Below are positions 2,696 through 44,827 of a DNA stretch of 53,927 nucleotides, piece by piece (position 1 is the stretch's first letter; the number at the start of each line of letters is the position of its first letter). Both the position numbers and the translations under genes were made by a program. Under the pieces are notes generated by a model that saw only the letters and a list, made by a program, of their open reading frames with translations, was not told the origin of the DNA and made no database searches. The stretch is from positions 1 through 53,927 of the forward strand of contig JABAQZ010000009.1 of assembly GCA_019187405.1 (NCBI GenBank), written 5' to 3'. This DNA comes from Ignavibacteria bacterium (GTDB taxonomy: Bacteria; Bacteroidota; Ignavibacteria; Tepidaquicellales; Tepidaquicellaceae).

Positions 2696-3355
2696 ATGGA
2701 GAATCCACAGGACAATATTCAGGTTGATATTTTCGGACTATCTTTAACACCTTCAATCAGCGGAGGCGGTTATGCTGTTATTTTAAAAGAAATTTCCGGC
2801 AGCAGAAGGTTGCCTATTATTATCGGGCAATATGAAGCTCAGTCAATTGCTTTAGAACTCGAAGGCATAAAACCTCCCAGACCGCTTACACATGATCTCT
2901 TAAAAGAAATTGTTGAAACTTTCGGATACAGCGTCAATTATATTCTCATTAACGAACTAAAAGATTCCACTTTTTACGCAAAGATAAAATTCGATTCAAC
3001 CAATCTTGAAGAAATTGATGCAAGACCTTCGGATGCAATAGCAATTGCACTGAAGTTTTCGGCTCCGATATATGTTAACTCTGAAATTATGGATGAAGTT
3101 GGATTTGTTCCGGATTATGACGAACAGGTTTTACCTAAGCAGGAAGATGAAGTCGAACCTGAAGAAGTAACGGATGAAAGCTTTCAGGAAAAAACTTCAT
3201 CCAAGAAATTAGATTCAAAAAATCTCTCGGGTAAGGAAAAGAAACTGATGCAGCTGAAAAGCGAACTTGAAGAAGCCATTACAAAAGAAGATTATGAAAA
3301 AGCTGCACATCTGAGAGATGAAATTAAGAAAATGGAAATATCAAATCTAAACTGA
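2696..3355 (+). CDS. Bifunctional nuclease (DUF151) protein with C-terminal UVR motif
   Basis: The N-terminal part (about residues 8-140) is a DUF151/BFN domain, with IIIGQYEAQSIALELEG near 41-57 and the signature RPSDAIAIA at 110-118. Members have been reported to have RNase/DNase activity or to act as stress regulators. An acidic linker (140-178) leads to a UVR motif at about 183-214, LEEAITKEDYEKAAHLRDEI, the short helical hairpin found in UvrB/UvrC and ClpC-type proteins. The BFN-UVR combination is common in Bacteroidota and relatives. The length of 219 aa is normal, and the protein is cytoplasmic with no signal peptide. The cellular role is not shown by context. Confidence 0.85.
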   Translation: MENPQDNIQVDIFGLSLTPSISGGGYAVILKEISGSRRLPIIIGQYEAQSIALELEGIKPPRPLTHDLLKEIVETFGYSVNYILINELKDSTFYAKIKFDSTNLEEIDARPSDAIAIALKFSAPIYVNSEIMDEVGFVPDYDEQVLPKQEDEVEPEEVTDESFQEKTSSKKLDSKNLSGKEKKLMQLKSELEEAITKEDYEKAAHLRDEIKKMEISNLN

Positions 3356-3384
3356 ATACCATTTATTAAATAAAATATTCCTAA

Positions 3385-3948
3385 TTGAAAAAAGTAAAAG
3401 TTATTTTATACGTCCTTTTATTTTTCATTTCCAACTCCGTTATTGCACAAAATATTCCCGAATTAAAATCATTAAATCAATTTTCAAAAAACTCCGGATT
3501 AAAATCTGAAATTACGGCAAGTCCTATTCCTACTTCCGGAGGCAGCATGGGATTTAATACCGGATTAGCTATTATCGAAGGTAATGTCGGATTTGCTATC
3601 GGAGCATTTGCAGAAATAAAAGCAGGAACCGTTTCATTCGTCCCTCAAGCAAATTACTGGAATGCATCAGAGCAGAACAATTTCGAGCTTGCCGGTCTTG
3701 CGAGATTTTATTTATCAAAATCAGATTTTCAACCGTATCTTGACGGAGGACTTGGAGTTAATTTTTTCAACCAGCAGAGTTCAAACGTTACAAAACTAAG
3801 CATCGATATCGGAGGAGGTGTAGATATTCAGCAGTTTGGCGATTCCTTCACACTGCTTTTTGACGGGAAATATAAGCTCATTATAAGAGACCCCGGCAAT
3901 GTATCCTGTTTTATTTTTACGGCAGGCATGAGATTTCCTTTTAAATAG
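3385..3948 (+). CDS. Small outer-membrane beta-barrel protein
   Basis: A 187-aa protein starting at TTG; residues 1-22 form a signal peptide ending in VIAQ. The mature part has alternating short hydrophobic strands rich in Gly and aromatics (GLARFYLSKSDFQPYLDGGL near 110-130) and ends in a strand finishing with Phe-Pro-Phe-Lys, as in small eight-stranded outer-membrane barrels (OmpW/OmpA-like). It lies 29 bp after the DUF151 gene and is closed by a strong terminator. No specific substrate can be inferred. Confidence 0.65.
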   Translation: MKKVKVILYVLLFFISNSVIAQNIPELKSLNQFSKNSGLKSEITASPIPTSGGSMGFNTGLAIIEGNVGFAIGAFAEIKAGTVSFVPQANYWNASEQNNFELAGLARFYLSKSDFQPYLDGGLGVNFFNQQSSNVTKLSIDIGGGVDIQQFGDSFTLLFDGKYKLIIRDPGNVSCFIFTAGMRFPFK

Positions 3949-3966
3949 AAATTTTATTTTTTAATC

Positions 3967-4004
3967 AAAACCGCGTAAAGGAAATTTTCTTTTACGCGTT
4001 TTTT
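3967..4004 (+). terminator. Terminator after the outer-membrane protein gene
   Basis: CGCGTAAA and TTTACGCG pair around a short AT loop and are followed by a run of six T on the plus strand. It separates the etf-DUF151-barrel group from the coaX group. Confidence 0.8.
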
Positions 4005-4053
4005 GTTGGAGTATAATTAATATTTTATATCATTAAAATTTTTTTTAACACAA

Positions 4054-4791
4054 TTGAGATACCTGTTAATTGATATAGGAAATTCTGAAGTCAAAGCTGC
4101 ATTAGGATTTAGCAATAGAACAAACGTAAAGCTGCTCAAACGATTTTCCCATTCCAAAAGTAATTTTGAAAAAGAATTCATTAAAAATCTTAAGCAATTT
4201 CGGCATTTGAATTTTGATTCAGCCGGAGTTTCTGTTCAGGATTTTAAAAAAAGAACCCTAATCAAAAAACTCTGCAAAAAGATTTTCAATATATCCCCGG
4301 TTTTTGTAGAAAGAAAAATGGTTAAGAATATTAAAATAGATTATTCCGAAAGCCTGGGAATTGACAGAATATGCAATGTTGTCGCAGCCGTTGCTGCATA
4401 CGGATCAAAAAATCTGCTTGTGATTGATTTCGGTACTGCAACTACTTTTACGATTGCATCAAACAAGGAGTTAAAAGGAGGATTGATTTGTCCAGGATTG
4501 ATAACTGCTCTGAAAGCATTATCCGCAAATGCAAAACTCCCCAAAGTGAAAATTAATAAACCGGATAAATTGTATTTTAACGATACTGTCAACAACATTA
4601 CAGCCGGAGGATTTTATCAGACATTGTTTTCTGTTAAAGGAATTATGAATGAGTTTAGAAAACAATTTAAGAATCTGAAAATAATTACTACTGGAGGATT
4701 GTCGAATTATTTCACTACTGAATTACCGAGATCTGTTTTAAATGACATGCAGCTTACTTTAAAAGGAATAAAATTAATCATTGAGAGATGA
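4054..4791 (+). CDS. coaX: Type III pantothenate kinase
   Basis: Catalyses ATP-dependent phosphorylation of pantothenate, the first step of coenzyme A synthesis, in the cytoplasm. The 245-aa protein shows the ASKHA-fold signature of CoaX: IDIGNSEVK at 6-14 (phosphate-binding loop), GIDRI at 102-106 (pantothenate side), DFGTATT at 125-131 and GGLICPG at 142-148. The start is TTG at 4054; the DIGNS motif lies at the expected distance from it. Its last codons overlap the ATG of the next gene (ATGA, 4788-4791), which points to translational coupling. Confidence 0.92.
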   Translation: MRYLLIDIGNSEVKAALGFSNRTNVKLLKRFSHSKSNFEKEFIKNLKQFRHLNFDSAGVSVQDFKKRTLIKKLCKKIFNISPVFVERKMVKNIKIDYSESLGIDRICNVVAAVAAYGSKNLLVIDFGTATTFTIASNKELKGGLICPGLITALKALSANAKLPKVKINKPDKLYFNDTVNNITAGGFYQTLFSVKGIMNEFRKQFKNLKIITTGGLSNYFTTELPRSVLNDMQLTLKGIKLIIER

Positions 4792-5207
4792 AAATAATTA
4801 CTAAAGAAATTACAATCCCTACGGCAGGCGACTGCGATATTAAAAATATCACTGATAAAGTCACAGATATTCTTTTCAATTCCAAATTAAAAGAAGGATC
4901 GTGCTGCATATTTTCAATCGGCTCAACTGCTTCTGTAACCACAATCGAATATGAACCGGGATTAATAAAAGACATTCCAAAAGTTTTGGATAAACTAATA
5001 CCAACTTTTGCAAAGTACCATCACAATGAAACCTGGGGTGATAACAACGGACATGCACACATCAGATCTTCAATATTCGGAACATCATTGAACATACCTT
5101 TTCTAAATGGTGAATTGATACTCGGCACATGGCAGCAGATAGTACTAATAGATTTCGACAACAGGAAGAGAACTAGAAGAATTGTTGTACAGCTAACCGG
5201 AGAGTAA
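4788..5207 (+). CDS. yjbQ: YjbQ/UPF0047 family protein
   Basis: A 139-aa single-domain protein of the YjbQ family, often annotated as secondary thiamine-phosphate synthase because some members weakly complement thiE mutants; the physiological role is not settled. It has the conserved metal-site pattern: His78/His79 followed by WGDNNGHAH (83-91) and GTWQQIVLIDFD (113-124). It overlaps coaX by 4 bp and is followed 6 bp later by a glycosyltransferase, so these three are probably one transcript. The link with coaX is positional only. Confidence 0.88.
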   Translation: MKIITKEITIPTAGDCDIKNITDKVTDILFNSKLKEGSCCIFSIGSTASVTTIEYEPGLIKDIPKVLDKLIPTFAKYHHNETWGDNNGHAHIRSSIFGTSLNIPFLNGELILGTWQQIVLIDFDNRKRTRRIVVQLTGE

Positions 5208-5213
5208 ACTAAG

Positions 5214-6677
5214 GTGAAAAGAGCATTACCATTATTTATTATTCTCATAATATTCACCGGCTTAAGAATATATAAAATAGATTCAAAAAATCTTTGGTTC
5301 GATGAAATATATTCTTGGAACATTTCACAAGGATCTGAAATACAAATCATATCTGAAACATCGGGAGATATACACCCGCCTCTGTTTTATACAGCACTAA
5401 AGTACTGGAATTATCTTTTCAACGATAGTATAATTTCCATGAGACTTCTCAGCGTTATATTTGCTCTGGGAGGATTATTCTTCTTTTACCGCATTCTCAA
5501 ACTGTTTAAAATAAATAATCTTACAATTGTAATAACGCTGCTTTTATTTTCAGTTTCACCGCTTAACATTTATTATTCGCAGGAAGTAAGGATGTTAAAC
5601 CTTAACATGTTTCTTTGCCTCGGATCGGTTTATTATTTTTACGCTTTGCTATTTCTGAAAGAAAGGTATTCCGGCTTAAAATATTTTCTATTTACGATAT
5701 TGGCTTTTTACACTCATTACTTTTCAATTCTGATTTTCATTTCTCAGATCGCAGCAGCATTTATTTTCTACATGACACATAATGCAGCTAAACAGGAATT
5801 TAAAAAATTTATTTTCTATTCCGCAGGAGCATTTGTAATGTTCATTCCATGGCTCCCCGTATTCTTGAGACAAATTACAAAAGGACAGCCATGGAGAACT
5901 CAGTTGACTTTATTTGATGCAGGTAAAAATATTCTTGAATATTTTAAAGATGTTTTCCTTAGTCCTTATTATACTTATGAAACAATGACAACCGGCTATT
6001 TTACCGGCTTTATATCTGTGCTTACCGCAATTTTGATATTCTATGCAATAATAAGACTTTGGAATTCAGGCAAGCTTTTTTCAGTGAAAGAATTTTCGAT
6101 TGTAACTTTTGTCATTATTCCCATAACTGCTGCATATTTCATTTCTTTAAATCAAAGTATTATCCTGTCGAGATACTTGAGCATAATAGTTCCTTATTTG
6201 CTGGCTTCAATTGTCCTGCTTTCTTTTCAAGTACTTAACAAAAGAATTGCTGCTGCAGTCTGCATACTGTACTTTATTTCAAGCATTGCCGGTGTAAGAA
6301 TTTATTTCAGTAATAATTTTAAGAATAATGATTACAGGAAAATAATTTCATACATAGAGGAAAATTATAATCCGGGAGACAGAATAATTACTGAGCCGCA
6401 TTTCATGGGCTGGAGTATTAAATATCATGTCTTGCATGAAAAATCGCAATTAAGCAAACCGGAGATACTCGGCTGGAATATGAAAATGCAAGTTGATTCC
6501 CTGTCTGAAAGAAATGATCTGGATAAAATCTGGTTTATTACAGATTACAGTTCACTGGATAAGTCAGGATACGATTCTTTAAAATCGGAAATGCATCGCA
6601 TTGGATATAAATATAAAATGAGTAAAACATTTTATGTTGTACCATCAAAAGTAAGAGTAGATTATTTTGTAAAATAA
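5214..6677 (+). CDS. Multi-pass membrane glycosyltransferase (GT-C/ArnT-PMT type)
   Basis: A 487-aa integral membrane protein that starts at GTG with AAG just upstream. It has roughly ten hydrophobic segments up to about residue 370 and a soluble C-terminal part. The first periplasmic loop carries WFDEIYS (28-34) and, shortly after, HPPLFY (54-59), the acidic pair and HPP block typical of GT-C enzymes (GT39/GT83-like) that take sugars from polyprenyl-phosphate donors. The likely role is sugar transfer to lipid or protein on the periplasmic face; acceptor and sugar are unknown. It ends the coaX-yjbQ group. Confidence 0.8.
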   Translation: MKRALPLFIILIIFTGLRIYKIDSKNLWFDEIYSWNISQGSEIQIISETSGDIHPPLFYTALKYWNYLFNDSIISMRLLSVIFALGGLFFFYRILKLFKINNLTIVITLLLFSVSPLNIYYSQEVRMLNLNMFLCLGSVYYFYALLFLKERYSGLKYFLFTILAFYTHYFSILIFISQIAAAFIFYMTHNAAKQEFKKFIFYSAGAFVMFIPWLPVFLRQITKGQPWRTQLTLFDAGKNILEYFKDVFLSPYYTYETMTTGYFTGFISVLTAILIFYAIIRLWNSGKLFSVKEFSIVTFVIIPITAAYFISLNQSIILSRYLSIIVPYLLASIVLLSFQVLNKRIAAAVCILYFISSIAGVRIYFSNNFKNNDYRKIISYIEENYNPGDRIITEPHFMGWSIKYHVLHEKSQLSKPEILGWNMKMQVDSLSERNDLDKIWFITDYSSLDKSGYDSLKSEMHRIGYKYKMSKTFYVVPSKVRVDYFVK

Positions 6678-6774
6678 TTTGTTAAAATCTTCATTATAAA
6701 CTGATGTTTAGTTTTATGGAATCTCAAATAATAAATAAATCAATTGCTCATAAATTTATCACGTCCGGCCATAA

Positions 6775-6945
6775 CAATTTGAAGTTGTAAGTTTAACCAA
6801 AAGTTTTAAGCTTTTAAATTATTTGAAAACATAATTATTCTTCATAAAACCCATCCCAAAACAGGGTAGTTTTAAGATTAGAGAAATTTTAGTGACAATT
6901 ATTTTTTAAATTAAGTTTTTATTAAATTGAAAAATGTATTGGAAA
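6775..6945 (+). repeat. Conserved intergenic element, copy B
   Basis: In the 411-bp gap before the secreted protein at 7089. It contains GAGAAATTTT, GTGACAATTATTTTTTAAA, TTTTTATTAAATTGAAAAAT and GTATTGGAA, and upstream TTGAAGTTGTAA, ATTTGAAAACATAATTATTC and ACCCATCCC, matching copies A, C and D block by block. It ends about 144 bp before the ATG. No ORF or other signal is evident in 6678-7088. Confidence 0.62.
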
Positions 6946-7088
6946 GTAATGTAAAATATTATCTTTTTATCAATTTCTTTATCTTTTTTTTTAGATGTAA
7001 ATATCATAATTTTCAGGCATTAAATCCAAAAGAAAATATTAATTAATTTTAATGATAATTATTTATCACTGCCCCAAAAAGGACAACC

Positions 7089-9170
7089 ATGATTCATAAA
7101 AGAGCTGTATTTGCGCTATCAAGTTCTGCTTTAATTTTATTGTTAATGTCTTTTCTGATACCAGGGGATATTCAGGATGATGTCAATAATAAATTTACTT
7201 CAGTAGGTAATATAGGATTAACTGTTACTAACTACGGAACTATAGGAAACGGATTTTTGAGTTTTCCTTATCAGCCATCCTGCCAGTATCCGAAAAACTC
7301 CGGCATAGAGAATTTATTTGTAGGAGGTCTATGGATTGGCGGTTCAAAAAACGGTGCAATAAAAGTTACCACTGCTGCAGTTGATGTTTCAACTGCAAAC
7401 AGAACAGAGGGTTTTGAGTTTACAAATGCTGATGGATCGTTGATACTTGAAAGATCTTCTTTGCAGAATTCGCCAAATTACCGACCTGATGCCGTGTCAC
7501 ATCAGGATTTTGTCTGTGAATTTTTTGATACAAATTTAACTTCGGGCGGGACAGTAATTCAGAATCATACGCCGTTGGGCGTAAAAGTTCTACTCGAAAC
7601 TTATTGTTATGATTTCAATTTTGCAAATAACTGGGTCATACTTAATTACAAAATTCTAAACATAGGATACAGAAATGATACTGCGGCAATAGACAGTATC
7701 TATCTGGGATTATGGTGTGACGGCGTTGTCAGAAATACCAACCTTACTCCTCCGGCAGGAACTTCATTTTACAATAAAGGTGCAGATGGCTATGACAGTA
7801 CATTGAGGATGGCTTATGAATATGATTACAACGGCGATCCGGGATTTACGGATACTTATATTGGTTTTAAACTGCTCGGCATTAATCCAAGACCAAAAAA
7901 TCAAAACATCAATGACAGGACAAAGTTTACCATCTGGCAGTTCAGGAATACAACCGATCCATTGTATTTCTCGCCTACGGTTGACAATGATCCGAGCCAA
8001 AACGGCGGAAAGTATCAGAAGCTTCACGGTTATCTTACAATTAATCCTGCTCCGGACTCGATAAACAATCCTTCGATTAGTCCTCCCAGAATTGATGTAT
8101 TAAGACATACGCCGAATAACAGATCAACACTTCTTTCATACGGACCGATTAGAAATGAAAAAGCAGAAAGTTATTCTCTCAGATATATTCAGGATACAAT
8201 TAATATTGTTTATGCAGTTGTATGCGCGAAAAAATATGGTACCGATCCAACAACTTGGGATTCTTCATTTCAAAGAACAAACCTTAATGTTTCTGCTAAC
8301 TGGGCGCAAAGAGCTTATGATAACGGATACAAACTCCCTTCTCCTCCGGATCAGCCGAAATTAAAAGCCATCATAAAAGATAAGAATGTTACGCTTTATT
8401 GGGCTGCAAATTCCGAAAGATCTGTTGACCCTATTTCAAACTTAGAAGATTTTGAAGGATACAGAATTTACAGGACAAATCCGGGTTCCGATCTCACGCT
8501 TAATCAGGATTTGCTCAGTCAGCTTAAGATTGTTGGAGAGTTTGACAGTGCGCACAACAATATTTATAATAATACAGGATTTAATTTCATAAAACTCAAT
8601 GAGCCGTTTTACTTTGACGGCGATACTACACCTTACTTATATAAATTTGATTTTCCAAATCAGTTGAATGGATTTCAGTATGTATATTCGGTAACTGCTT
8701 TTGATAAAGGCGATGTGGTTCAGAATCTCGAATCACTGGAAAGCAGTATTTTGGGAAATTCACAAAGAATAATTGTCGGAACTCCTGCAAACAATAATCC
8801 TGATGCAGAAATCGGCGTTTATCCGAATCCTTATTACGGCAGCGCACTTTGGGACGGTGAAGGAAATAAAAAGGAACTGTTAAGGAAAATTTATTTTTTC
8901 AATCTTCCTTCTAAGTGTGAAATTTCCATCTGGACAATTTCAGGTGATCTTGTTGACAGATTCGAGCATGATGCTTCTACGTACAACGGAAGCGATATTG
9001 AGTGGTTTACTACATATTCAGACGGCACGCAGAAGTTTGCCGGCGGAGAGCATGCTTGGGATCTTATCACACAAAATGAACAGGCGATTGCTACCGGCTT
9101 GTATGTTTTTACTGTCAAAGATCTGAATTCAGGCGAGATTAAAAAAGGTAAGTTTGTAATAGTCAAATAA
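7089..9170 (+). CDS. Large secreted protein with T9SS-type C-terminal region
   Basis: A 693-aa protein. The first 26 residues are a hydrophobic export signal (ALSSSALILLLMSFLIPG). The body is beta-rich, with the block NLFVGGLWIGG near residue 77 and an Asp/Asn-rich central region; a fibronectin-like stretch (EGYRIYR near 455) follows. From residue 578 (YPNPYYG) to the end is a region like the T9SS sorting domain, with VYVFTVKD-type strands and a basic C-terminus GKFVIVK, although it lacks the usual NYPNPFNP. It is probably carried through the outer membrane and surface-attached or released. The function of the body is not recognised. It lies 46 bp before another T9SS cargo gene. Confidence 0.65.
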   Translation: MIHKRAVFALSSSALILLLMSFLIPGDIQDDVNNKFTSVGNIGLTVTNYGTIGNGFLSFPYQPSCQYPKNSGIENLFVGGLWIGGSKNGAIKVTTAAVDVSTANRTEGFEFTNADGSLILERSSLQNSPNYRPDAVSHQDFVCEFFDTNLTSGGTVIQNHTPLGVKVLLETYCYDFNFANNWVILNYKILNIGYRNDTAAIDSIYLGLWCDGVVRNTNLTPPAGTSFYNKGADGYDSTLRMAYEYDYNGDPGFTDTYIGFKLLGINPRPKNQNINDRTKFTIWQFRNTTDPLYFSPTVDNDPSQNGGKYQKLHGYLTINPAPDSINNPSISPPRIDVLRHTPNNRSTLLSYGPIRNEKAESYSLRYIQDTINIVYAVVCAKKYGTDPTTWDSSFQRTNLNVSANWAQRAYDNGYKLPSPPDQPKLKAIIKDKNVTLYWAANSERSVDPISNLEDFEGYRIYRTNPGSDLTLNQDLLSQLKIVGEFDSAHNNIYNNTGFNFIKLNEPFYFDGDTTPYLYKFDFPNQLNGFQYVYSVTAFDKGDVVQNLESLESSILGNSQRIIVGTPANNNPDAEIGVYPNPYYGSALWDGEGNKKELLRKIYFFNLPSKCEISIWTISGDLVDRFEHDASTYNGSDIEWFTTYSDGTQKFAGGEHAWDLITQNEQAIATGLYVFTVKDLNSGEIKKGKFVIVK

Positions 9171-9216
9171 AATATTAACTTAAAAAAATAATTCTTAAAA
9201 ATATTAAATTATAATA

Positions 9217-11511
9217 ATGAAAAAATTAAAATACATTCCATTATATCTGCTGAGCGCTTACATTTTATATGCATTTGGATTCAACATAATGAATGCAGCA
9301 TTTACTTTTGTTACACTACAGCAGGTACAGACAAAATCACCTGACTCGCTTGCTCTCGGTAGAGACAAATCCGATCTTGAAGGAGATTCCGTCGAGTTTA
9401 TTGCAAGAATTGTAGCTCCGCCAAAAGTTTCGGTTGCAAACAACGACTTCAGAACGCTTCTCAGAGGGACAAGCAGCTGGACATGTTATCTGCAAGATAC
9501 TGCAAACGGATTATTTGGAGGAATAGTAATCAGACAGGGAACCAGAGGTCCTGCAACCGGACTTGACCTTATGGATACAGGTCAGATTATTAAAGTAAGA
9601 GGAGTGATTCAGGAATTTGGCGCAACTTCCGGAAATAATTTTGCCAATTGCCTTACGCAGCTTTCCATAGATACGGCAGTCGGATATACTGTTACTCCAA
9701 TTGGAACGGCAACAAAAAGACCTGCTCCGATACCAGTTAATGTGTCTGAATTTGCAAACGGCGATTATCCGAATGGCGGTACGATAAATTATGTTCAGGG
9801 TGAAAAATATGAAGGTATGTATGTTGAGTTAAGAAACTTAACAGTTGCTGCCGGCATAGGTAACAGACAGCCATGGAGTGTCATTGATGATCAAGGGAAT
9901 AAGCTGTATATGAGAGATTTTTCGAATTTCTATTCTACATCGCCAAATGAAACTTTAAGAGTATGGACGCATCCATCAATAGGTACTTATGTCAATTACA
10001 TAAGAGGTGTAATAATAAACGCAAACAATGAAGGCGCTTTTGGGAATCAGCTTCCTTATGCGATTGTGCCTATTTATCCAAACGACTTAAGCCTCGGTAA
10101 TGCGCCTCCTACACTTTCAAATCCGACAAGAAGTCCCGGTGTGCCAACCCCACCGGATAGTGTAACCGTAAGTGTAACTGCTGTTGATCCGGGATTAAAT
10201 TCGGCAACGATAACCGACATGAAAGTTTTCTGGAGATATAACAGAGGAGCTTACAGTTCAAAATCTATGCCGCTTGTTACAGGAAATATATATTCTACAA
10301 AAATGCCTCCTGCTCCTATCGGAACACTTGTCGAATATATTTTCCGTGCAGAAGACAATCAGGGCGGAGTTAAACTGTTACCCTCAGATACATTAAGATC
10401 AAAGCTTTTTTACATTGTCAGACAAAATGATTCCATGTCAATTCAGGATATTCAATACTGTCCAAATAACGGTGGAAGATCCGCTTATGAAGGATATGAC
10501 GTAAGAGGAGTCGAGGGTATTGTTACATGCGATACATCCGACATTCCGGCATTTTCTTATACAAGCAGCGGAGGAACACAAACTTCTCCAAGAAGAGTTT
10601 ACATTCAAAACGGTCAGGGCAAAGGCAGCGGAATCTGGTTATCCGGTAATCCTACCGATATACTCAGAAGAGGCGACAGGGTAAGAGTCATGGGAACAGT
10701 GGAAGAAAACTTCAGCGTAACAAGAATAAATATTGTATCAACTTCAGGTATAAATGTTTTGTCAACCGGTAATCCCCTACCTACACCTGAAATACTTACG
10801 ACCGGACAGATTCCCAACTCAACGATTGACGGTGATACTCTTGTGGAACCTTGGGAAAGCGTGCTGATTAGATTTAACACCTCGGTTGAAATTAACTGCA
10901 TAAACGCAGGAATCGGAATTGCCTGCACCACGCAAGAGCCTTTGCAAGATACTACTTTCAGAAGAAACTTTGGCGAGATACTTGTAAAAGATGCTTCTAA
11001 TGTTTTATCGAGAATTGAACTTCAGGACGGCAATCATAAATTTACAAATAACTGGGATGGCACTCAGAATCCGCCTCAGCCCGGATATACATTGCTCACA
11101 AAAAATGATCTGATATCGTATGTTGAAGGCGTATTGTTCTTCGCTTTCAGCAATTACAAACTCACTCCGAGAAAGGATCCGGATTTCGGAACAGTTACGC
11201 CAGTCGGAGTTTCAAATAATGCAGTGAATCTGAATGATTACCAGCTCTTCCAGAATTATCCAAATCCTTTTAACCCCGTTACTACTATCAAGTTCAATCT
11301 GCCAAATTCGGGAATTGTATCCTTAAAGGTTTACGATATGCTTGGAAGAGAAATAAAAACTCTGATGAACGGATTTACTTCTCCGGGAATTCATTCCGTG
11401 AATTTTGATGCTGCCGGATATTCAAGCGGTGTTTATTTTTATAAGCTTGAGATTAATGGAAATGACGGGAATAAATTTGTAATTACTAAGAGGATGATAC
11501 TTCTTAAGTAA
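9217..11511 (+). CDS. Secreted protein with two OB-fold-like domains and T9SS sorting domain
   Basis: A 764-aa protein. After an N-terminal hydrophobic segment (residues 7-35) come an OB-fold-like region (about 50-290, with VRGVIQEFG), a beta-sandwich/Ig-like domain (about 300-400, starting PPTLSNPTRSPGVP) and a second OB-like region (about 405-640, with YDVRGVEGIVTC and GDRVRVMGTVEEN). Such domains accompany extracellular nucleases, but no endonuclease/exonuclease/phosphatase catalytic domain is visible. Residues 679-764 are a textbook T9SS type A sorting domain (QNYPNPFNP, YDMLGREIKTL, SSGVYFYKLE, KRMILLK). It may bind nucleic acid or another polymer at the surface; this is inference. Confidence 0.75.
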   Translation: MKKLKYIPLYLLSAYILYAFGFNIMNAAFTFVTLQQVQTKSPDSLALGRDKSDLEGDSVEFIARIVAPPKVSVANNDFRTLLRGTSSWTCYLQDTANGLFGGIVIRQGTRGPATGLDLMDTGQIIKVRGVIQEFGATSGNNFANCLTQLSIDTAVGYTVTPIGTATKRPAPIPVNVSEFANGDYPNGGTINYVQGEKYEGMYVELRNLTVAAGIGNRQPWSVIDDQGNKLYMRDFSNFYSTSPNETLRVWTHPSIGTYVNYIRGVIINANNEGAFGNQLPYAIVPIYPNDLSLGNAPPTLSNPTRSPGVPTPPDSVTVSVTAVDPGLNSATITDMKVFWRYNRGAYSSKSMPLVTGNIYSTKMPPAPIGTLVEYIFRAEDNQGGVKLLPSDTLRSKLFYIVRQNDSMSIQDIQYCPNNGGRSAYEGYDVRGVEGIVTCDTSDIPAFSYTSSGGTQTSPRRVYIQNGQGKGSGIWLSGNPTDILRRGDRVRVMGTVEENFSVTRINIVSTSGINVLSTGNPLPTPEILTTGQIPNSTIDGDTLVEPWESVLIRFNTSVEINCINAGIGIACTTQEPLQDTTFRRNFGEILVKDASNVLSRIELQDGNHKFTNNWDGTQNPPQPGYTLLTKNDLISYVEGVLFFAFSNYKLTPRKDPDFGTVTPVGVSNNAVNLNDYQLFQNYPNPFNPVTTIKFNLPNSGIVSLKVYDMLGREIKTLMNGFTSPGIHSVNFDAAGYSSGVYFYKLEINGNDGNKFVITKRMILLK

Positions 11512-11650
11512 TGTGCAATCTTCAATGTGCAATGAGCAATGAATAATGTGCAATGTTCAATGAATAATGTGCAATGTTCAATGAGTAATGTGCAATGTTC
11601 AATGAGTAATGTGCAATGTTAATGTGCAATGAGCAATGATTAATATGCAA
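11512..11650. repeat. 22-bp tandem repeat array
   Basis: Directly after the stop codon, the unit AATGTGCAATGTTCAATGAGTA, with AATA as a variant ending, is repeated head to tail about four times, flanked by degenerate pieces of the same AATGTGCAATGAGCAATG theme. Copies abut with no unique spacers, so it is a simple tandem array and not a CRISPR. It is likely variable in copy number between strains. Confidence 0.85.
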
Positions 11651-11685
11651 TCCGCCGAGGAGGAGTTGTTTGCCGAGGCGGATTG
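11648..11685. repeat. Inverted repeat at the end of the tandem array
   Basis: CAATCCGCC (11648-11656) and GGCGGATTG (11677-11685) form a 9-bp stem with a 20-nt loop; GCCGAGG occurs twice inside. There is no T-run, so it is not a clear terminator. It is GC-rich compared with its surroundings and could be a small REP-like unit. Confidence 0.5.
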
Positions 11686-12230
11686 TAAATTGAAAAATTG
11701 TTTTGCCTCGATGGATTGAACATTGATATTTAAAAAAAGTGTGTTGAGCTTCTCTTTATCTTTAATTCTGCAAGATTTACATCACTACCTTTGCTTACTT
11801 CAATAAAAACTTTGATGAATACAGTTTGAAACAATGTATTTCATCAACCAAAATTTAAAATGAAATTTTTTAAATTAATAATGAGTGATATAATTTTTTA
11901 TCTAAAGAGAATATCTGCGGTTTTAAAATCAGAGATACATACAAAATTTCTACAGTCATTTTTCGCTACACTCAAAAGAGAACATAATTTTTAATTCAGT
12001 TTCAGGAAAATCACGGTACAAATTGTTTCTTGTGAATGAGTTTTGACAAATACAATAAGCAATGGGAAAATAAGAAAATTTATTTTGAAAATTGTATATT
12101 TGTTTTAATAAAAAAGGCACAAATCAGTTGAGTGAAAATTCTGAGCTAAATGGATTATTTTACTTTATTTTATAGAACGAAATTATACTTGAAATTGTTA
12201 GCTTATTTAAATTTATTAGCATAAATAATA
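11686..12230. other. Long AT-rich intergenic region before the 1102-aa protein gene
   Basis: About 545 bp without a convincing reading frame. TATATTTG at 12095-12102 fits the Bacteroidota -7 consensus TAnnTTTG and lies about 129 bp upstream of the next ATG, but I see no well-placed -33 TTTG. No terminator was found for the upstream gene apart from the hairpin at 11648-11685. Confidence 0.4.
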
Positions 12231-15200
12231 ATGTCAGGTATGAATTTTCATAAATATCCGAAACCCTCTTTTTTAACAATTGTTTTTATATTTCTATTTT
12301 TATTTTCCGGTACGGCTTTTTCACAATTTGGACAGAATAAAGTTCAGTATAAAGTATTTGACTGGAAATATCTTCAGACAAAACATTTCGATATATATTT
12401 CAGCCAAGGAGGTAAATATTTGGCAGAGTTTACGGCATACGAAGCGGAAAAAGCATTAAAAAATCTTTCGGATAACATTGATTACAGAATATCCAACAGA
12501 ATTCCGATTATAGTTTACAATTCGCACAATGATTTTCAGCAAAACAACGTAATTGATGAATACATGACTGAAGGAGTTGGCGGTGTAACGGAATTATTTA
12601 AAAACAGGATTAATGTTCCTTTTGAAGGAGATTATGAAAAATTCAGACATGTTATACATCACGAGCTGGTGCATGCATATATGAATGATATGTATTACGG
12701 AGGTTCGATTCAGAATATCATTTCGAGAAATATTTCGCTTCAGTTTCCCCTTTGGTTTTCAGAAGGTATGGCGGAGGTGCAGAGCAATTACGGACTGAAT
12801 GAGCAGACTGACATGTTTATGAGAGATGCGGCTATTAATAATTACGTTCCCGATCTGGACTATATGGGAGGATATTTTGCATACAGAGGCGGTCAGAGTT
12901 TCTTCTCATTTCTAGCAGATGTTTATGGTGAAGATAAAATCGGAATTTTAATGAACAACATCAGAGCTTTCAGCGACGTGGAGCAGGGATTTGCAGAAAC
13001 TTACAAAATGAATTTAAGCCAGCTAAATGAAAAATGGCACAGTTATCTGAAAAAAACATATTGGCCTGATTTAAAAATAAGGGAAGATGTAAGAGATTTT
13101 GCTAAGCAGCTTACAGATCATGAAAGAGACGGAGGATCATACAACGTTGCGCCTGCTATTTCGCCGGACGGTTCTTTATTTGCATACATTTCAAACAGAG
13201 ACGATTTGTTTGATGTTTTTATAGCCAAAACCCGTAACGGGGAAATTGTAAAAAAACTTATTGAGGGAAATAATTCTTCAGATTTCGAAGAACTGCACAT
13301 ACTTACTCCCGGTCTTTCATGGTCGCCAAATGGCAGACAGATTGCCATTAGTGTTAAGTCAGGCGATCATGATGCAATTTATGTTATAGACGTTAATTCC
13401 GAAGACAAAGTCGAATTACCCGTAAGCTTTGATGCAATAAATTTTCTCAGTTGGTCGCCGGTTGGAAATAAAATAGCTTTTGTTGGAAATACTAGAGAAA
13501 GATCCGATTTATTTTATTATGATTTGACAAAGAAAAAACTTGTACGCTTAACAGATGATATCTTTTCAGACCTTAATCCTGCATGGACTCTTGATGGAAA
13601 AAGCATTGCATTCACTTCAGACAGAGGTGCTTATGTGAATCCTGCCGAGATACCAACTGATTTAAAAATGTGGGAATATGATTATTCAAACAGCGATTAT
13701 TACAGAATTAATATTGAAACAAGAGAAATTACACGTTTGAGTGATTCAAGAGATTCAAAAGAAAGTTATGCGCAGGTTAGCCAAGACGGGAAGAAAGTAC
13801 TTTATGTTTCGGATAAAAACGGTATTAACAATATTTACATGAGAGAGACTGATTCTGCGGGCAACAGAACCGACAGACCAATTACTAACTCAATGAATCC
13901 GATTGACCAGATTACAATGTCTCGCGACGGCAGTAAGCTTCTTTTTATTGCTTTAAACAAGGGAGGTTATGATATTTTTTCAATGGATAATCCTCTTGAA
14001 AAAAAACTTGAAGAAAAAGAACTCGTTCTTACCGATTACAAAAAAAAGAAAAATGAATATGAAAGTAAATTCGGCTGGACAATAAATTCACCCAAGAAAG
14101 ATACATCAGCATTAAGCGTTGACAGCTTGATCAAAAAAGATAAAGAAGTCAATGAAAACTTAACAGAGAGCGATTCTACTAAAGCCGGAAGCAATTCCGT
14201 ACCGGATACGATTGATACAAGTTTAAATGATACTCTGAGCTTATCAGAAGAACAATCAATTTCAGGATTGAATGAGAGCAACGAAGATACAGCAAAGTAT
14301 TACGGTGATGATGTAAAAATCAGTTTTGATTTGCCTGAATTAAAATTAAAACCTGATAAAGATTCAAGTTATGACTTTAATGAAAATTTCTCTCTTGCTG
14401 GAAATACAAATCCGGACGGCTCATACAAGATTAATAAATATAAAATTAAATTTACGCCGGATCTTGTTTACGGGAATGCGAGTTATCAGTCATTTTACGG
14501 GCTGCAGGGAGTTGCGCAAATTGTATTGAGTGACATGCTCGGGGATCACAGAATTTACATTCAGACATCACTTGTAATAGATTTAAAAAACAGCGATTAT
14601 TCGGTATCATATTTTTATCTTCCTAAAAGAATCGATTACGGTTTTCAGCTGTATCACACAGCAAGATTTCTTACTTACGGGTACAGATTTCAGGAATATT
14701 TGTATAGATACAGGACAATTGGCGGGAACATATCTGCATCTTATCCTATTTCAAGATTCAAAAGAATAGACGGCAATATTTCCATTCAGCATATTTCCAG
14801 GGAAAATCTTGATCTTGCCGCCGAGCCGATTACCAGAAAGACTTTGCTTGTTCCTTCATTTAGTCTGATACATGATAATACGATTTTCGGATACACAGCT
14901 CCTATATCAGGAACAAGATATTATCTCACTTTTATGGGTTCTCCTAAATTACATGATGAAGGCATTGGATTTGCATCTATACTGACTGATTTCAGACATT
15001 ACATCAAGCTCGGTGATGATTATACTTTTGTTACAAGATTTGCCGGCGGAGGAAGCATTGGACCGAATCCGCAAAGATTTTTCATTGGAGGTACAGAGAA
15101 TTGGATTAACAGGGAATATGAAAATTATAATATTCCCATTTCAAACATTGAGGAATATGCTTTCTCATTTCCCGGTTTTCCGCTTAGAGGATATAATTAT

Positions 15201-15539
15201 GACAGAATGTCTGGTTCGAAATACGGTATCCTTAATCTTGAAATGAGATTTCCGCTATTCAAATATCTTATACTCGGAGCATTACCTTTAGGATTTGCAA
15301 ATATCGAAGGTGTAACATTTCTCGATGCTGGAACTGCATGGTCGGATAACGAGGCTTTAAAGTTCATTCACAAGGATGAAAACGGAAACGTTACGACTAA
15401 CGATCTGTTGCTTGGCACTGGATTTGGAGCAAGGACAAATTTCCTTGGTTTTCCGATAATGTTTGACATTGCATGGAGATACAATCTGGATAAATTTTCA
15501 GAGCCAAAATATTATATTTCTTTCGGTTACGATTTCTGA
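12231..15539 (+). CDS. Surface protein: metallopeptidase-like domain, TolB-type propeller and outer-membrane barrel
   Basis: An 1102-aa protein with a signal peptide (residues 14-32, ending FSQ). Residues 40-285 form a peptidase-MA/gluzincin-like domain with the zinc motif HELVH (144-148) and a downstream WFSEGMAE (175-182) that can give the third ligand Glu. Residues about 290-600 hold TolB/PD40 propeller repeats (ISPDGSLFAYISNRD, LSWSPNGRQIAIS, WTLDGKSIAFTSDRG). An Asp/Ser/Lys-rich linker (610-735) precedes a BamA/Omp85-like C-terminal barrel ending in YYISFGYDF, whose terminal Phe is usual for BAM substrates. The likely role is a barrel-anchored protease or substrate-binding device; the substrate is unknown. 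It is alone on its strand and closed by a terminator. Confidence 0.8.
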   Translation: MSGMNFHKYPKPSFLTIVFIFLFLFSGTAFSQFGQNKVQYKVFDWKYLQTKHFDIYFSQGGKYLAEFTAYEAEKALKNLSDNIDYRISNRIPIIVYNSHNDFQQNNVIDEYMTEGVGGVTELFKNRINVPFEGDYEKFRHVIHHELVHAYMNDMYYGGSIQNIISRNISLQFPLWFSEGMAEVQSNYGLNEQTDMFMRDAAINNYVPDLDYMGGYFAYRGGQSFFSFLADVYGEDKIGILMNNIRAFSDVEQGFAETYKMNLSQLNEKWHSYLKKTYWPDLKIREDVRDFAKQLTDHERDGGSYNVAPAISPDGSLFAYISNRDDLFDVFIAKTRNGEIVKKLIEGNNSSDFEELHILTPGLSWSPNGRQIAISVKSGDHDAIYVIDVNSEDKVELPVSFDAINFLSWSPVGNKIAFVGNTRERSDLFYYDLTKKKLVRLTDDIFSDLNPAWTLDGKSIAFTSDRGAYVNPAEIPTDLKMWEYDYSNSDYYRINIETREITRLSDSRDSKESYAQVSQDGKKVLYVSDKNGINNIYMRETDSAGNRTDRPITNSMNPIDQITMSRDGSKLLFIALNKGGYDIFSMDNPLEKKLEEKELVLTDYKKKKNEYESKFGWTINSPKKDTSALSVDSLIKKDKEVNENLTESDSTKAGSNSVPDTIDTSLNDTLSLSEEQSISGLNESNEDTAKYYGDDVKISFDLPELKLKPDKDSSYDFNENFSLAGNTNPDGSYKINKYKIKFTPDLVYGNASYQSFYGLQGVAQIVLSDMLGDHRIYIQTSLVIDLKNSDYSVSYFYLPKRIDYGFQLYHTARFLTYGYRFQEYLYRYRTIGGNISASYPISRFKRIDGNISIQHISRENLDLAAEPITRKTLLVPSFSLIHDNTIFGYTAPISGTRYYLTFMGSPKLHDEGIGFASILTDFRHYIKLGDDYTFVTRFAGGGSIGPNPQRFFIGGTENWINREYENYNIPISNIEEYAFSFPGFPLRGYNYDRMSGSKYGILNLEMRFPLFKYLILGALPLGFANIEGVTFLDAGTAWSDNEALKFIHKDENGNVTTNDLLLGTGFGARTNFLGFPIMFDIAWRYNLDKFSEPKYYISFGYDF

Positions 15540-32802: not shown

Positions 32803-33957
32803 TTATTTTGTGATGATCAGCTTTCCATTAAAAATGAAAACATTCCCCGAATTTTCGGCGGTAAATCTGTATATATAAACACCGCTTGATAGTCCGTCAG
32901 AATTTAATTTCACGGAATGAAAACCTGCCGGCATATTTCTACTAAGGATATTCTTTACATTCTTTCCAGACATATCATACAATTTAATTTCAACCAAATT
33001 ATTTGACGGTAAACTGAAATCAATATTAGATTCCGGATTGAATGGGTTGGGATAATTTTGTGAAACATAAAAATTTTCAGGTATAGTAATTTCAACTAAC
33101 GATTCAAGATAATGGTAGAAATAGTTTCCATTAAAATCAATTTGCTTAAGTCTGTAATTATAAATACCGGGAGATAAATTCTTATCGAGAAAAGAATAAG
33201 TTACAGTCTGGTTTGAAAAACCTGCACCTGTTACAAATCCTCTTTTCTGCCATTCGCTATCGACTGATTTTCTTTCTATTTCAAATCCTCTGTTATTTAT
33301 TTCGGAATTAGTTGACCAGATAAGATTTACATTATTCTTTGAAACAAAATGCACAAATGAATTCATTTGAACGGGCAGTGGATGGTCGAGAGAATCAATC
33401 AGATGATTTGAAGGGTTTGATATTTCGGTATAGATTTCATCAACATAAGAATAAATTTTTGTATAAGGATTTGACGGACCGTTTCTCCATCTCAGACGGA
33501 AATATTGTTCACTGAAAGCTTTTGAGGTTGTCTGGAGTTTCATTCTGACAATTTTTGTGCCGGGTGATATAGCAGATATAATAAACCCCTGACCAGGAGA
33601 TGGTAAGGCATTTGCGGATAACCTTAACTGCATTGCACCTCCGACAAGATAAACCTGCGGATTCCTCGGCTGAAGAGCTTCGGGAAGATCAGAGTTGACA
33701 ATTGAATAAGTAAATGAACCCCCGTTTGCAATGAGACTGTTAAAATCAAAATAAAACTGACCTGTTGCATATTCAAACACAGACGAATCCGGATTTGTAT
33801 GAAGAAGATAAATATCAAACTCAAGCTCGTTAGGCATGGTTTGAATAACATTAGTAACTTTTAGGACATAAGCCGGGGTCTGGGAAAGAATAAGAGAAGT
33901 TTGAAGACATGATATTGAAACAAGTAACCCAAAAAAGAATTTAGTATAAGGAGTCAA
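32803..33957 (-). CDS. Cohesin-like domain protein with T9SS sorting domain (1)
   Basis: A 384-aa secreted protein with a signal peptide ending near residue 25 (SLILSQ). Residues about 27-190 form a compact beta-rich domain beginning PAYVLKVTNVIQ, with NELEFDIYLLHTNPDS and FEYATGQFYFDFN, shared with the genes at 35510 and 36871. Its strand order resembles cohesin modules; this is inference. Residues about 195-290 are an FN3-like module (LIWSTNSEINNRGFEIERK, YNYRLKQIDFNG), and the last about 85 residues are a T9SS type A sorting domain (QNYPNPFNPES, YDMSGKNVKNI, SSGVYIYRF, KLIITK). It converges with the DUF885 gene 4 bp away. Confidence 0.8.
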   Translation of the reverse strand: MTPYTKFFFGLLVSISCLQTSLILSQTPAYVLKVTNVIQTMPNELEFDIYLLHTNPDSSVFEYATGQFYFDFNSLIANGGSFTYSIVNSDLPEALQPRNPQVYLVGGAMQLRLSANALPSPGQGFIISAISPGTKIVRMKLQTTSKAFSEQYFRLRWRNGPSNPYTKIYSYVDEIYTEISNPSNHLIDSLDHPLPVQMNSFVHFVSKNNVNLIWSTNSEINNRGFEIERKSVDSEWQKRGFVTGAGFSNQTVTYSFLDKNLSPGIYNYRLKQIDFNGNYFYHYLESLVEITIPENFYVSQNYPNPFNPESNIDFSLPSNNLVEIKLYDMSGKNVKNILSRNMPAGFHSVKLNSDGLSSGVYIYRFTAENSGNVFIFNGKLIITK

Positions 33958-33982
33958 TGTCTTTAAATTATATAGAAAAAGC

Positions 33983-34014
33983 GAAGTGAGTTTTTAAAAT
34001 TAAAACTCACTTCA
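33983..34014 (-). terminator. Terminator after the dockerin protein gene at 34042
   Basis: GAAGTGAGTTTT and AAAACTCACTTC form a 12-bp stem with a 7-nt AT loop, followed on the minus strand by GCTTTTTC. Confidence 0.75.
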
Positions 34015-34041
34015 CAAAAATATAATTTGATTAATTTTGCA

Positions 34042-35337
34042 TCAAGGAATAATCGCATTTACAAAGTTTGAGGCATTATTGTCAACAATCGCTGCATCAG
34101 AACCATCGATAATATCATTACCATCAAGGTCAGTATCGAGATAACCGGCTTCGAAATTGGAAGCATCATTGTCAATTTCAGCTCCGTCTCCCCCGTCAAC
34201 AACATCATCCTGATTTGTATCACCATTATAGGCAGATATTGTAGATCCGACCATTATCTGATTGCTGCCATAAGCCTGTCCCAGAGAAGTAGTGAAATTA
34301 AAACTACCTCCGTTGTAAGGAGCAATTGCAACCGGAGTACCGCTCCATGTTTGAACTCCATTTCTAAATTCTGAAGAATTTCTAAAATTAACATCGAGAT
34401 AATAATTATCGGGAGAAATTGAATTTGGCAGTCCGAGATCAGCAATATTCATCACACCGTTAACGATAGATACTGCCTTATAATTTGAAACAACGATTCC
34501 ATAAGGTGAAGACGCGCTTCTTACATTTACCAAAGCAGTGTCCGTTATAGTTGCGTTTCCCTGAACAAGACCCTGGACAGCCATGACAATGTCAATATCG
34601 GTTGAGAACCAGGAAGTAGCAACTCTAATGCCGTCAACCACACAGTTAGGAGCTTTTGTAGTAGTACCTTGTCTTAAAGCAACTCTACCGATTGAAGTTG
34701 CATCTTGCGAAGAATAAGTAATCGGACCAACAGTCGGTGCAGGTTCTGTTAATGGAAGACTTGTATCAAAAACAAACAAGCTTACCTGATCGTTTGTATT
34801 TGAACCTGTGACAAATGTATATTTCAATACAAGCAGATAAGTTACTCCTTTTGAATAAGAGTGAGGTGTCCAGATACCGGCAACCAATGTGTCGGAGCTT
34901 GCATTACCTTTTGTTATACCAAAGGCAATATTTCCTGAACCGTCAATTGATCTAACCTGAACTCTTCCTTCATAAAATGAAGTAGAGCCAGTCTGTAGAA
35001 GTGCAAGGAAATAATCGGCAGTTCTGGCAGTATCTACTCTTACTAAAAACGAGCAGTAAACGGAACCTGAACTATCACTTCCGTTTAATAATTTATATTG
35101 ATCCTGCCCTGTATTGGCTAATGTAGCCGCGTTTCCGATCCCGAGAAGATATCCGGGAAATGTTAATCCGGGTGATGTTACAAGAATTCTATTGGTTGCG
35201 CCGCCTGTATTCCAGTTCCATCCATGCGCTCCAATTGAATCTCCTACTGGATAATCAAAATCTTCATCGAGCCTAAGCTGAGCATAAGATGCGGCAGATA
35301 TGAATGAGATAATTAATAATAAGAAAAATGTTTTCAT
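34042..35337 (-). CDS. Secreted dockerin-type protein (1)
   Basis: A 431-aa protein with a signal peptide (1-19, ending ASYAQ). Residues 20-220 resemble a LamG-like jelly roll (LRLDEDFDYPVGDSIG). Residues about 230-370 are the module that also precedes the dockerin loops in the genes at 38168 and 48999, diverged here. Residues 373-384 (DTNQDDVVDGGD) and 403-414 (DLDGNDIIDGSD) are two dockerin-type calcium loops, each followed by IDNDASNF or VDNNASNF instead of the usual long helix. There is no T9SS sorting domain; the protein ends VNAIIP. Probably exported and held by a surface partner. Confidence 0.8.
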   Translation of the reverse strand: MKTFFLLLIISFISAASYAQLRLDEDFDYPVGDSIGAHGWNWNTGGATNRILVTSPGLTFPGYLLGIGNAATLANTGQDQYKLLNGSDSSGSVYCSFLVRVDTARTADYFLALLQTGSTSFYEGRVQVRSIDGSGNIAFGITKGNASSDTLVAGIWTPHSYSKGVTYLLVLKYTFVTGSNTNDQVSLFVFDTSLPLTEPAPTVGPITYSSQDATSIGRVALRQGTTTKAPNCVVDGIRVATSWFSTDIDIVMAVQGLVQGNATITDTALVNVRSASSPYGIVVSNYKAVSIVNGVMNIADLGLPNSISPDNYYLDVNFRNSSEFRNGVQTWSGTPVAIAPYNGGSFNFTTSLGQAYGSNQIMVGSTISAYNGDTNQDDVVDGGDGAEIDNDASNFEAGYLDTDLDGNDIIDGSDAAIVDNNASNFVNAIIP

Positions 35338-35432
35338 TTTGAAGTTAAATTAAATTAATTAAGAATTTTTGTTTATGCAAAATTAATGTAATTGCTTTAA
35401 TAATACAATAATCTAATCCAAATTTATTATTA

Positions 35433-35457
35433 AAAAAGCAGGCTTAAGCCTGCTTTA
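35433..35457 (-). terminator. Terminator after the gene at 35510
   Basis: AAAGCAGGC-TTAA-GCCTGCTTT, a perfect palindromic hairpin with a T-run on the minus strand. Confidence 0.8.
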
Positions 35458-35509
35458 AAGTAAAATTATAGAATGAAAGTGATTTATTTTAGTAATACGA
35501 CATTTGCCG

Positions 35510-36712: not shown

Positions 36713-36820
36713 AATAATTTTTTTATGCAGTTATCAGATAAATTCTATATTAAGTGATTATATTAGTATTCCACTATAAATTAAAACACAAATAATTCTT
36801 ACAAGATAAGTTCTTTGAAT

Positions 36821-36851
36821 AAAAAGGGTTGGTTAAATCCAACCCTTTTTA
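36821..36851 (-). terminator. Terminator after the gene at 36871
   Basis: AAAAAGGGTTGG and CCAACCCTTTTT form a 12-bp stem around TTAAAT, followed by T on the minus strand. Confidence 0.88.
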
Positions 36852-36870
36852 ATTTTGAATAATTACTAGA

Positions 36871-38085: not shown

Positions 38086-38121
38086 ATTAGTTTGTAATTA
38101 AAATTAAAGAATAATATTTTT

Positions 38122-38150
38122 TTAGTGGGGTGAATATTAATCACCCCACA
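38122..38150 (-). terminator. Terminator after the dockerin protein gene at 38168
   Basis: GTGGGGTGA and TCACCCCAC form a 9-bp stem around an ATATTAA-type loop; on the minus strand TAAAAAAATAT follows, so the T-run is imperfect. Confidence 0.7.
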
Positions 38151-38167
38151 AACGAAATACTAAAATA

Positions 38168-40348: not shown

Positions 40349-40620
40349 TGATTTTTTTTTAAAAGTTAATAAAGATTTTGTGAATTGTAAATTAAAAACC
40401 ATTTTCTTGCATAGTCAATCTTAGTATTTTGTTTAATATAAGATAAACCCTTACTTTTGATTTCTCATTAAAGTCCTCCTTCTTCTTCAATGAGATCTAA
40501 ATTTTAAAAAGATTTTTTAAAACAACCTTCTCCGGGAAGTTTTCCTGGATAATATAACCTCTGTCTTGATTTTTTTTAAATTAAAAAATATAATTTATTA
40601 AATAAATAGTATTTGAGATT

Positions 40621-42282: not shown

Positions 42283-42330
42283 AAAATCTTTTATGTTAAA
42301 ATATTTTAGACATAATTCATAAGCAATATT

Positions 42331-42362
42331 AAAAAACCGGAAGAGCAGTCTCCTCCGGTTTA
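42331..42362 (-). terminator. Terminator after the gene at 42419
   Basis: AACCGGA and TCCGGTT pair, with GAG/CTC-type extension, around a loop; on the minus strand TTTTTTAA follows. Confidence 0.7.
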
Positions 42363-42418
42363 TAAAATAATTCTGATTACATACTTCAGATTTTTGTTAA
42401 AGTACTTTAAGCATTAAT

Positions 42419-44764: not shown

Positions 44765-44800
44765 AAAAAACTGCGGGCTTATTCAGTCCGCAGTTTTTTG
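44765..44800 (-). terminator. Terminator after the 1226-aa protein gene
   Basis: AAAACTGCGG and CCGCAGTTTT pair around GCTTATTCAGT; a run of seven T follows on the minus strand. Confidence 0.88.
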
Positions 44801-44827
44801 TAAATCTGAAAATTCAGATGAATGAAA

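Follow-up and report, generated by a model that had tools for sequence, protein, structure and literature searches.

What does a single polypeptide do that joins a zinc peptidase, a β-propeller and an outer-membrane barrel? The question is raised by an open reading frame (ORF) of 1102 amino acids on contig JABAQZ010000009.1 of an Ignavibacteria bacterium (assembly GCA_019187405.1), of which positions 1 to 53,927 were analysed as one stretch, hereafter the window. The source genome comprises 3.78 Mb in 38 contigs, and its nearest named relatives are Ignavibacteria metagenome-assembled genomes. An earlier note on this DNA had taken the barrel for a plain anchor and had thought of cargo of the type IX secretion system (T9SS) as a possible substrate. 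The reading that we prefer, and to which we give an about even chance, is that the protein belongs to the WD40-Omp85 kind and serves in assembly or translocation as a factor of Omp85 type, with a periplasmic head composed of a propeller and a gluzincin zinc peptidase.

Domain scans matched Peptidase_MA_2 at residues 72–274 (45.3 bits versus a Pfam cut-off of 32.4) and propeller models behind it (PD40, E=1.2e-19; DPPIV_N, E=2.6e-11), and a TolB propeller model matched at E=1e-33, under that model's equivalog cut-off; Peptidase_MA_2 and PD40 were both found in 33/33 aligned relatives. Together with the barrel predicted by AlphaFold2 and its last residue, Phe1102, these matches bear out the three-module protein with a Phe-ended barrel of the earlier note, and its HELVH (144–148), its WFSEGMAE (175–182) and one of its PD40-type repeats, ISPDGSLFAYISNRD (residues 310–324), were all located in the translation. 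Its acidic linker holds in direction, as 27 acidic versus 18 basic residues were counted over residues 599–736, but the excess is mild. The opposite strand of 12231..15539 contains no ORF of 100 or more amino acids.

The nature of the barrel was determined from an AlphaFold2 model of residues 700–1102, built on a 67-row alignment (predicted local distance difference test, pLDDT, 87.5), in which 16 long strands were counted on the DSSP line. Structural comparison by VIA-align revealed close likeness to BamA of D. radiodurans (8xnb, Z 26.3, 3.7 Å over 314 residues) and of F. johnsoniae (Z 25.5), followed by TamA (8us1, Z 23.5; 4c00, Z 22.6). BamA occupies most of the best 50 fold matches with TamA within a few Z units, and since the scores are so close, the BamA and TamA kinds are not told apart by fold. 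The 67-row profile matched Fusobacterium BamA (9ccg) at 1.6e-12 and BamA 4k3b at 0.0025. Curated Omp85 sequence models were weak, namely that Omp85_fam (NF047779) reached E=9.4e-7 and 28.6 bits over residues 985–1102, far under its cut-off of 200, while PF01103 had no match in the window protein and matched 13/33 aligned relatives; the barrel is therefore identified by its fold, its motifs and the profile search. Conservation was determined over 93 full-length homologues, i.e. the window protein and 92 loci. R986 of RG[YF] in loop 6 and D1032 of FxDxG, which we take to be Omp85 motifs, are each present in all 93, and the C-terminal residue is F or W in 92. By fold and motifs, the modelled barrel belongs to the Omp85 (BamA/TamA) kind and so to an assembly or translocation kind instead of a plain anchor. 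In BamA and TamA the N-terminal head is periplasmic, and by analogy we expect the same location for that of the window protein.

The peptidase domain was modelled with AlphaFold2 from a 67-row alignment (residues 30–300, pLDDT 87.4). Foldseek and VIA-align found collagenase 8jt1 nearest (Z 17.6, 4.1 Å over 230 residues), with the M30 protein lugdulysin (Z 16.1) and M1 aminopeptidases (Z ~14) as further matches; comparison of the profile with sequences of solved structures gave no credible match, so that matches came from fold comparison alone. HELVH falls in helix 106–127 of the model and Glu178 in helix 145–157, hence two helices of a gluzincin fold carry the zinc residues predicted by the earlier note, as judged by helix placement. 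With HExxH and a downstream Glu in a matching predicted fold, the domain is assigned to the gluzincins (Peptidase MA). H144, E145 and H148 are each kept in 91/93 homologues, E178 in 92/93 and G179 in 93/93; the zinc-site exceptions are L063 and L064, both of family f35 (our own handles are used for loci, L; genomes, G; contigs, C; and families, f, the window organism being G000 of family f1).

Strikingly, the gene is recurrently the third of a same-strand cluster. Of the 94 loci with flanks, 92 could be scored for their neighbourhoods (under the hidden Markov model, HMM, rule there was no ORF to score in L131 and L168), and the order tamB-like–rnr–gene was observed in 46 of the 92. The cluster is complete in all sampled members of f10 (13/13), f13 (2/2), f16 (2/2), f18 (2/2), f19 (4/4), f29 (4/4) and f30 (18/18), and in 1/3 of f4, whose other two loci are rnr–gene pairs ended by a contig edge. 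The remaining scored loci comprise one rnr–gene pair without tamB (f22), 42 with different neighbours and one uninformative locus. Between rnr and the gene the gap has a median of 18 bp over 49 loci (range −4 to 338, with starts set mechanically), and RNase R identity was confirmed by TIGR02063 on two rnr copies. The zinc site is intact in 46/46 cluster loci, because the sole exceptions are the two f35 loci named above. Among the matches listed, PF04357, the TamB model, was located 2.2–2.6 kb upstream on the same strand in at least 12 of 64 family-positive genomes with a TamB position, and farther away on the opposite strand in G177 (4.2 kb) and G110 (31.6 kb). Six TamB-like ORFs of the cluster were scanned, of which three exceeded the PF04357 cut-off (L099, L100, L128); the remainder matched AsmA/DUF748 or, weakly, TamB models, and no Pfam model was found in the shortened ORF of L072. 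The TamB-like label of L072 and L102 comes from an HMM for which four cluster ORFs served as training set, and it is circular for those four.

The window genome itself has this set in divided form. Its only PF04357 gene, tamB, is located on another contig, C11, in the order hldE kinase–hldE adenylyltransferase–tamB–rnr (hldE1 and hldE2; L171, G000:C11:123000-142000, 5527-13836, +) without the third gene behind, and genes of ~330 and ~160 amino acids, the same sizes as this hldE pair, precede tamB in many cluster loci. We read this as an old three-gene cluster that was probably broken in the window's lineage. In a midpoint-rooted tree of 42 selected rows, cluster-linked families occupy several branches near that of the window protein, which fits but does not prove an old cluster; p3 (a second paralogue of the same genome, see below), L057 and L054 form long branches of unsure placement. 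As the cluster is split in the window organism, a partnership there would act in trans.

An Omp85 barrel clustered with a tamB-like gene suggests a membrane-protein assembly device carrying its own protease. We infer a periplasmic side, a TamB partnership, protease activity and a quality-control role, in other words one chain serving as an analogue of BamB, BepA and an Omp85 protein and working with TamB. The signal peptide would send the protein to the periplasm, and the barrel, once inserted into the outer membrane, would have a lateral seam like that of BamA or TamA. In the manner of BamB with BamA, the propeller would provide a docking site for substrate or partners. Outer-membrane cargo or lipid would be handed over by a TamB-like protein that bridges from the inner membrane, and the peptidase would clear cargo stalled or misfolded at the barrel, a task that BepA, likewise a zinc peptidase and the nearest functional precedent, performs at the β-barrel assembly machinery (BAM) complex. 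TamB is a known partner of the Omp85 proteins TamA and TamL. According to passages of PMC12045153, TamL copurifies with TamB in F. johnsoniae, and in Bacteroidota tamL and tamB do not share one operon, except tamB2-tamL2; PMC8423444 describes BepA as a zinc peptidase with two effects on LptD, promotion or degradation, probably exerted on the BAM complex. Having no POTRA, the window protein is not a member of TamA/TamL, nor does it belong to the BepA family; it is proposed to work like them. A bolder form of this reading, which we hold only tentatively and consider clearly less probable, would make it a third type of translocation-and-assembly module, in which a TamB-type bridge serves an Omp85 insertase, the propeller and an editing protease replace POTRA, and barrel insertion and proteolytic quality control reside on one polypeptide; sister copies would be devoted to very large barrels, SprA among them, and in one clade, partly beside T9SS genes, the protease would have become a pseudo-enzyme scaffold.

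Several observations weigh against the TamB-linked assembly reading. No POTRA match was found for the window protein, nor does POTRA appear in the family list of the 33 aligned relatives. The 42 of 92 loci with different neighbours include f1, the window's own family, as well as f2 and f14; the TamB-like ORFs are divergent in the window's class, with PF04357 over cut-off in 2/5 scanned, and that of L102 matched no TamB model in NCBIfam. An RNase R gene sits between tamB and the gene, and pairs occur split, as tamB–rnr without the gene (L171, L184, L187) and as rnr–gene without tamB (L070), so what the gene is linked to may be rnr, or simply an ancient gene order. Moreover, the own genome has seven PF01103 matches, of which one is the paralogue p2 and none is the window protein, hence TamB there may have another Omp85 partner. 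In favour of the assembly reading stand three f30 genomes (L174, L175, L176), in which a first TamB copy adjoins an ORF of 641–662 amino acids, identified in L174 as a POTRA-Omp85 protein (PF01103 and PF07244) with PF01103 at the corresponding places of G141 and G133; in the same genomes a second TamB-like gene is the cluster member ahead of the propeller-Omp85 gene.

The paralogues and distant copies bear on the alternatives. The own genome has two further copies, p2 (C13, 963 amino acids) and p3 (C18, 1036 amino acids), which both keep HExxH and the downstream Glu; in p2 the Peptidase_MA_2 score is 26.3, under the cut-off of 32.4, while PF01103 is over cut-off, and for p3 the motif pair was found by pattern in 28/30 loci. 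HExxH is gone in 11/11 readable copies of four families, namely f35 (G101, G128, G163, G197), f36 (G124), f34 (G097) and f23 (G064, G086, G143, G167, G178; G072 was unreadable at the site and stands outside the count). Over the propeller, a match to the family profile persists in 10 of the 11 genomes (not listed for G178), both barrel motifs are kept in 7/7 copies where they were read, and every other distant copy read keeps HExxH and Glu. Judged from sequence, the f23, f34, f35 and f36 clade is a pseudo-peptidase.

Two rival explanations concern the enzyme. The protein could be a protease whose Omp85 barrel serves only for anchorage or export of the head attached to it, as has been proposed for PlpD, and which digests external or periplasmic peptides with no assembly role; the nearest peptidase folds are secreted collagenases, and passages of PMC4104836 describe the patatin protein PlpD, whose enzyme domain is said to be delivered to the surface. 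The cluster with tamB-like and rnr and the links to sprA, porU and a TonB-dependent receptor point instead to outer-membrane biogenesis, and a pure protease would leave unexplained why one clade retains the protein after loss of the zinc site, so we regard this explanation as unlikely. Conversely, the peptidase fold might be a scaffold that binds without cutting, its conserved residues holding a structural zinc only. The loss in the pseudo-peptidase clade favours this, but outside those families conservation is as strict for the catalytic Glu145 as for the zinc ligands, which makes the scaffold the least probable of the alternatives. For the preferred assembly reading, since BepA is both helper and protease, a zinc-less clade would be understandable.

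A third rival, a T9SS accessory factor that assembles or checks SprA and PorV barrels or processes T9SS cargo, rests on linkages that are real in some relatives. The gene for p3 lies head-to-head with sprA in the own genome, 180 bp apart (L173, G000:C18:14000-33500; 3293-6403, −, and 6583-13179, +), and adjoins it in 16/16 f1 loci having about 1.4 kb or more of flank, own included (three f1 p3 loci lack flank and stand outside this count). In 5/5 sampled f35/f36 genomes the gene lies 2.5–3.6 kb from porU, and in two of them 4.9 kb from sprA. These zinc-less copies are divergent to porU (L063, L064, G163:C8, G128:C3, G124:C21), with three genes of ~355, ~215 and ~240 amino acids in between in L063 and L064; a second copy in G126, 7.6 kb from porU, keeps its zinc site. 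The near pairs with porU and sprA were counted among the matches listed and are a lower bound, as others may be missed. SprA is also present in 100 of 101 family-positive genomes, and the window neighbour 9217-11511 carries a T9SS sorting domain by profile match. Nevertheless, the window's own group is linked to tamB-like and rnr instead, the commonest conserved neighbours, and p3 stands beside sprA in 0/8 informative f2 loci. Cleavage of T9SS cargo is not what the porU link preserves, because the zinc site is lost in the five porU-near f35/f36 genomes.

The family was found in 59/59 genomes searched among relatives and in 101/148 genomes of a phylum sample, both including the own genome; PorU was over cut-off in 103 and SprA in 117 of the latter. 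Against PorU the sample divides into 88 genomes with both, 13 with the family only, 15 with PorU only and 32 with neither, and against SprA into 100, 1, 17 and 30. Thus 13/101 family-positive genomes have no PorU over cut-off, five f20 genomes included, and 15/47 family-negative ones have one, while PorU and SprA occur without the family in at least 12 f28 genomes and two f25 genomes. As the single lineage f24 accounts for 30/32 genomes lacking family and PorU and for 30/30 lacking family and SprA, the joint absences lend no independent support to a T9SS role. T9SS was thus set aside as the main explanation, the linkage being real for p3 and one divergent clade and not for the window's group, and we consider the accessory role improbable. 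A TonB-dependent-receptor family lies immediately upstream in 6/7 named f2-like loci (L038, L039, L040, L043, L044, L046; confirmed by Pfam on L038, with L039 placed by likeness only). The partners in these linkages, sprA, porU, TamB and the receptor, are all outer-membrane proteins or assembly factors thereof.

Table 1. Features of the 1102-residue protein and their positions in the window
Feature	Position	Strand	Remark
Whole ORF, 1102 aa, ATG start	12231..15539	+	signal peptide, gluzincin peptidase, propeller, linker, Omp85-type barrel
Probable signal peptide (residues 1-32), cleaved around AFS|Q, without lipobox Cys	12231..12326	+	by eye
Motif FGQNKVQY directly after signal peptide	12327..12350	+	F33, G34, N36, K37, Y40 invariant across 33-row alignment
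Peptidase_MA_2 domain, residues 72-274, predicted gluzincin fold (like M9 collagenase, M30, M1)	12444..13052	+	
HELVH, residues 144-148, with catalytic Glu145 and both expected His ligands of zinc	12660..12674	+	
Glu178 of WFSEGMAE (175-182), expected third zinc ligand	12762..12764	+	
Tyr218, candidate transition-state Tyr	12882..12884	+	kept 91/93
TolB-like propeller, ~residues 300-590	13128..14000	+	profile matches
Low-complexity linker, ~residues 599-736	14025..14438	+	poorly conserved in alignment consensus
16-stranded Omp85-type barrel, ~residues 742-1102, C-terminal Phe	14454..15536	+	predicted fold, profile search
RGY, residues 986-988, Omp85 loop-6 motif	15186..15194	+	R986 93/93, G987 89/93
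FLDAG, residues 1030-1034, Omp85 FxDxG motif	15318..15332	+	D1032 93/93, G1034 92/93

Elsewhere in the window, several proteins within 32803-48580 (−) share, by eye, a common T9SS-type C-terminal tail, QNYPNPFNPxTxI..., and three secreted-looking proteins of the window (34042-35337, 38168-40402 and 48999-51374, all −) have, likewise by eye, a dockerin-like repeat at their end, GDxNxDxVVDGxD...IDNDASNF, in place of a T9SS tail. The sorting-domain profile that matched 9217-11511 had no match in 7089-9170.

Among known systems, the closest is the WD40-Omp85 subfamily, in which a TolB-like propeller stands N-terminal to an Omp85 barrel and which passages of Heinz and Lithgow 2014 (PMC4104836) liken to a BamA–BamB fusion. 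The window protein shares this propeller and barrel without POTRA, as matched by the published definition only. The fusion of propeller and Omp85 had already been published there, with no gluzincin named in the text; the word ‘peptidase’ occurs 0 times in the main text of PMC4104836, and its section 10 gives no tamB or rnr context. A separate ‘Metallo’ subfamily, termed metalloprotease in passages of the same paper, is defined by PF00149 and not by a gluzincin. BamP of the F. johnsoniae BAM complex (9n2e), a loop of which enters the BamA barrel according to passages of PMC12611786, was considered and set aside; ‘propeller’, ‘WD40’ and ‘peptidase’ each occur 0 times in the main text of that paper. 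No mention of WD40-Omp85 as a TamB partner was found in main-text passages of PMC4494059 and PMC12045153. Neither the order tamB–rnr–WD40-Omp85 nor a gluzincin in WD40-Omp85 was found in the literature among the matches listed, with most subscription journals outside the coverage. The gluzincin domain in WD40-Omp85, the tamB–rnr linkage and the one-clade loss of the zinc site, all read from sequence, thus appear, within that coverage, to be unpublished, while the propeller–Omp85 fusion was already known.

The other likenesses are partial. TamA/TamL with TamB share the Omp85 barrel and a close fold (Z ~23), and a TamB-like gene is clustered in many relatives; the window protein differs by lacking POTRA, by its propeller and peptidase, by the RNase R gene in between and by being unlinked in its own genome. 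BamA with BamB shares an Omp85 barrel and a β-propeller (barrel Z up to 26), whereas the window protein is a single chain without POTRA and with an extra peptidase, matched by a TolB and by no BamB model. From the gluzincins M1, M9 and M30, with which it shares the fold, HExxH and the downstream Glu in a WFxEGxA motif, it differs by fusion to a propeller and an Omp85-type barrel. PF00149, for its part, we take to be the metallophosphoesterase family. BepA is a separate periplasmic protein with tetratricopeptide repeats (TPRs); an HExxH zinc peptidase is common to both and action on assembling outer-membrane protein would be so by analogy, but with no M48 or TPR Pfam match in the window protein the likeness is one of proposed role only. 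WD40-Omp85 was named in 2014 with its function only guessed, and the recurrent tamB–rnr–gene order supplies a candidate partner that makes the role of the fusion directly addressable. If the reading is true, an assembly barrel with its own protease would be a single-chain model for BAM–BepA quality control, and the zinc-less clade would offer a natural experiment on which aspects of the function depend on catalysis.

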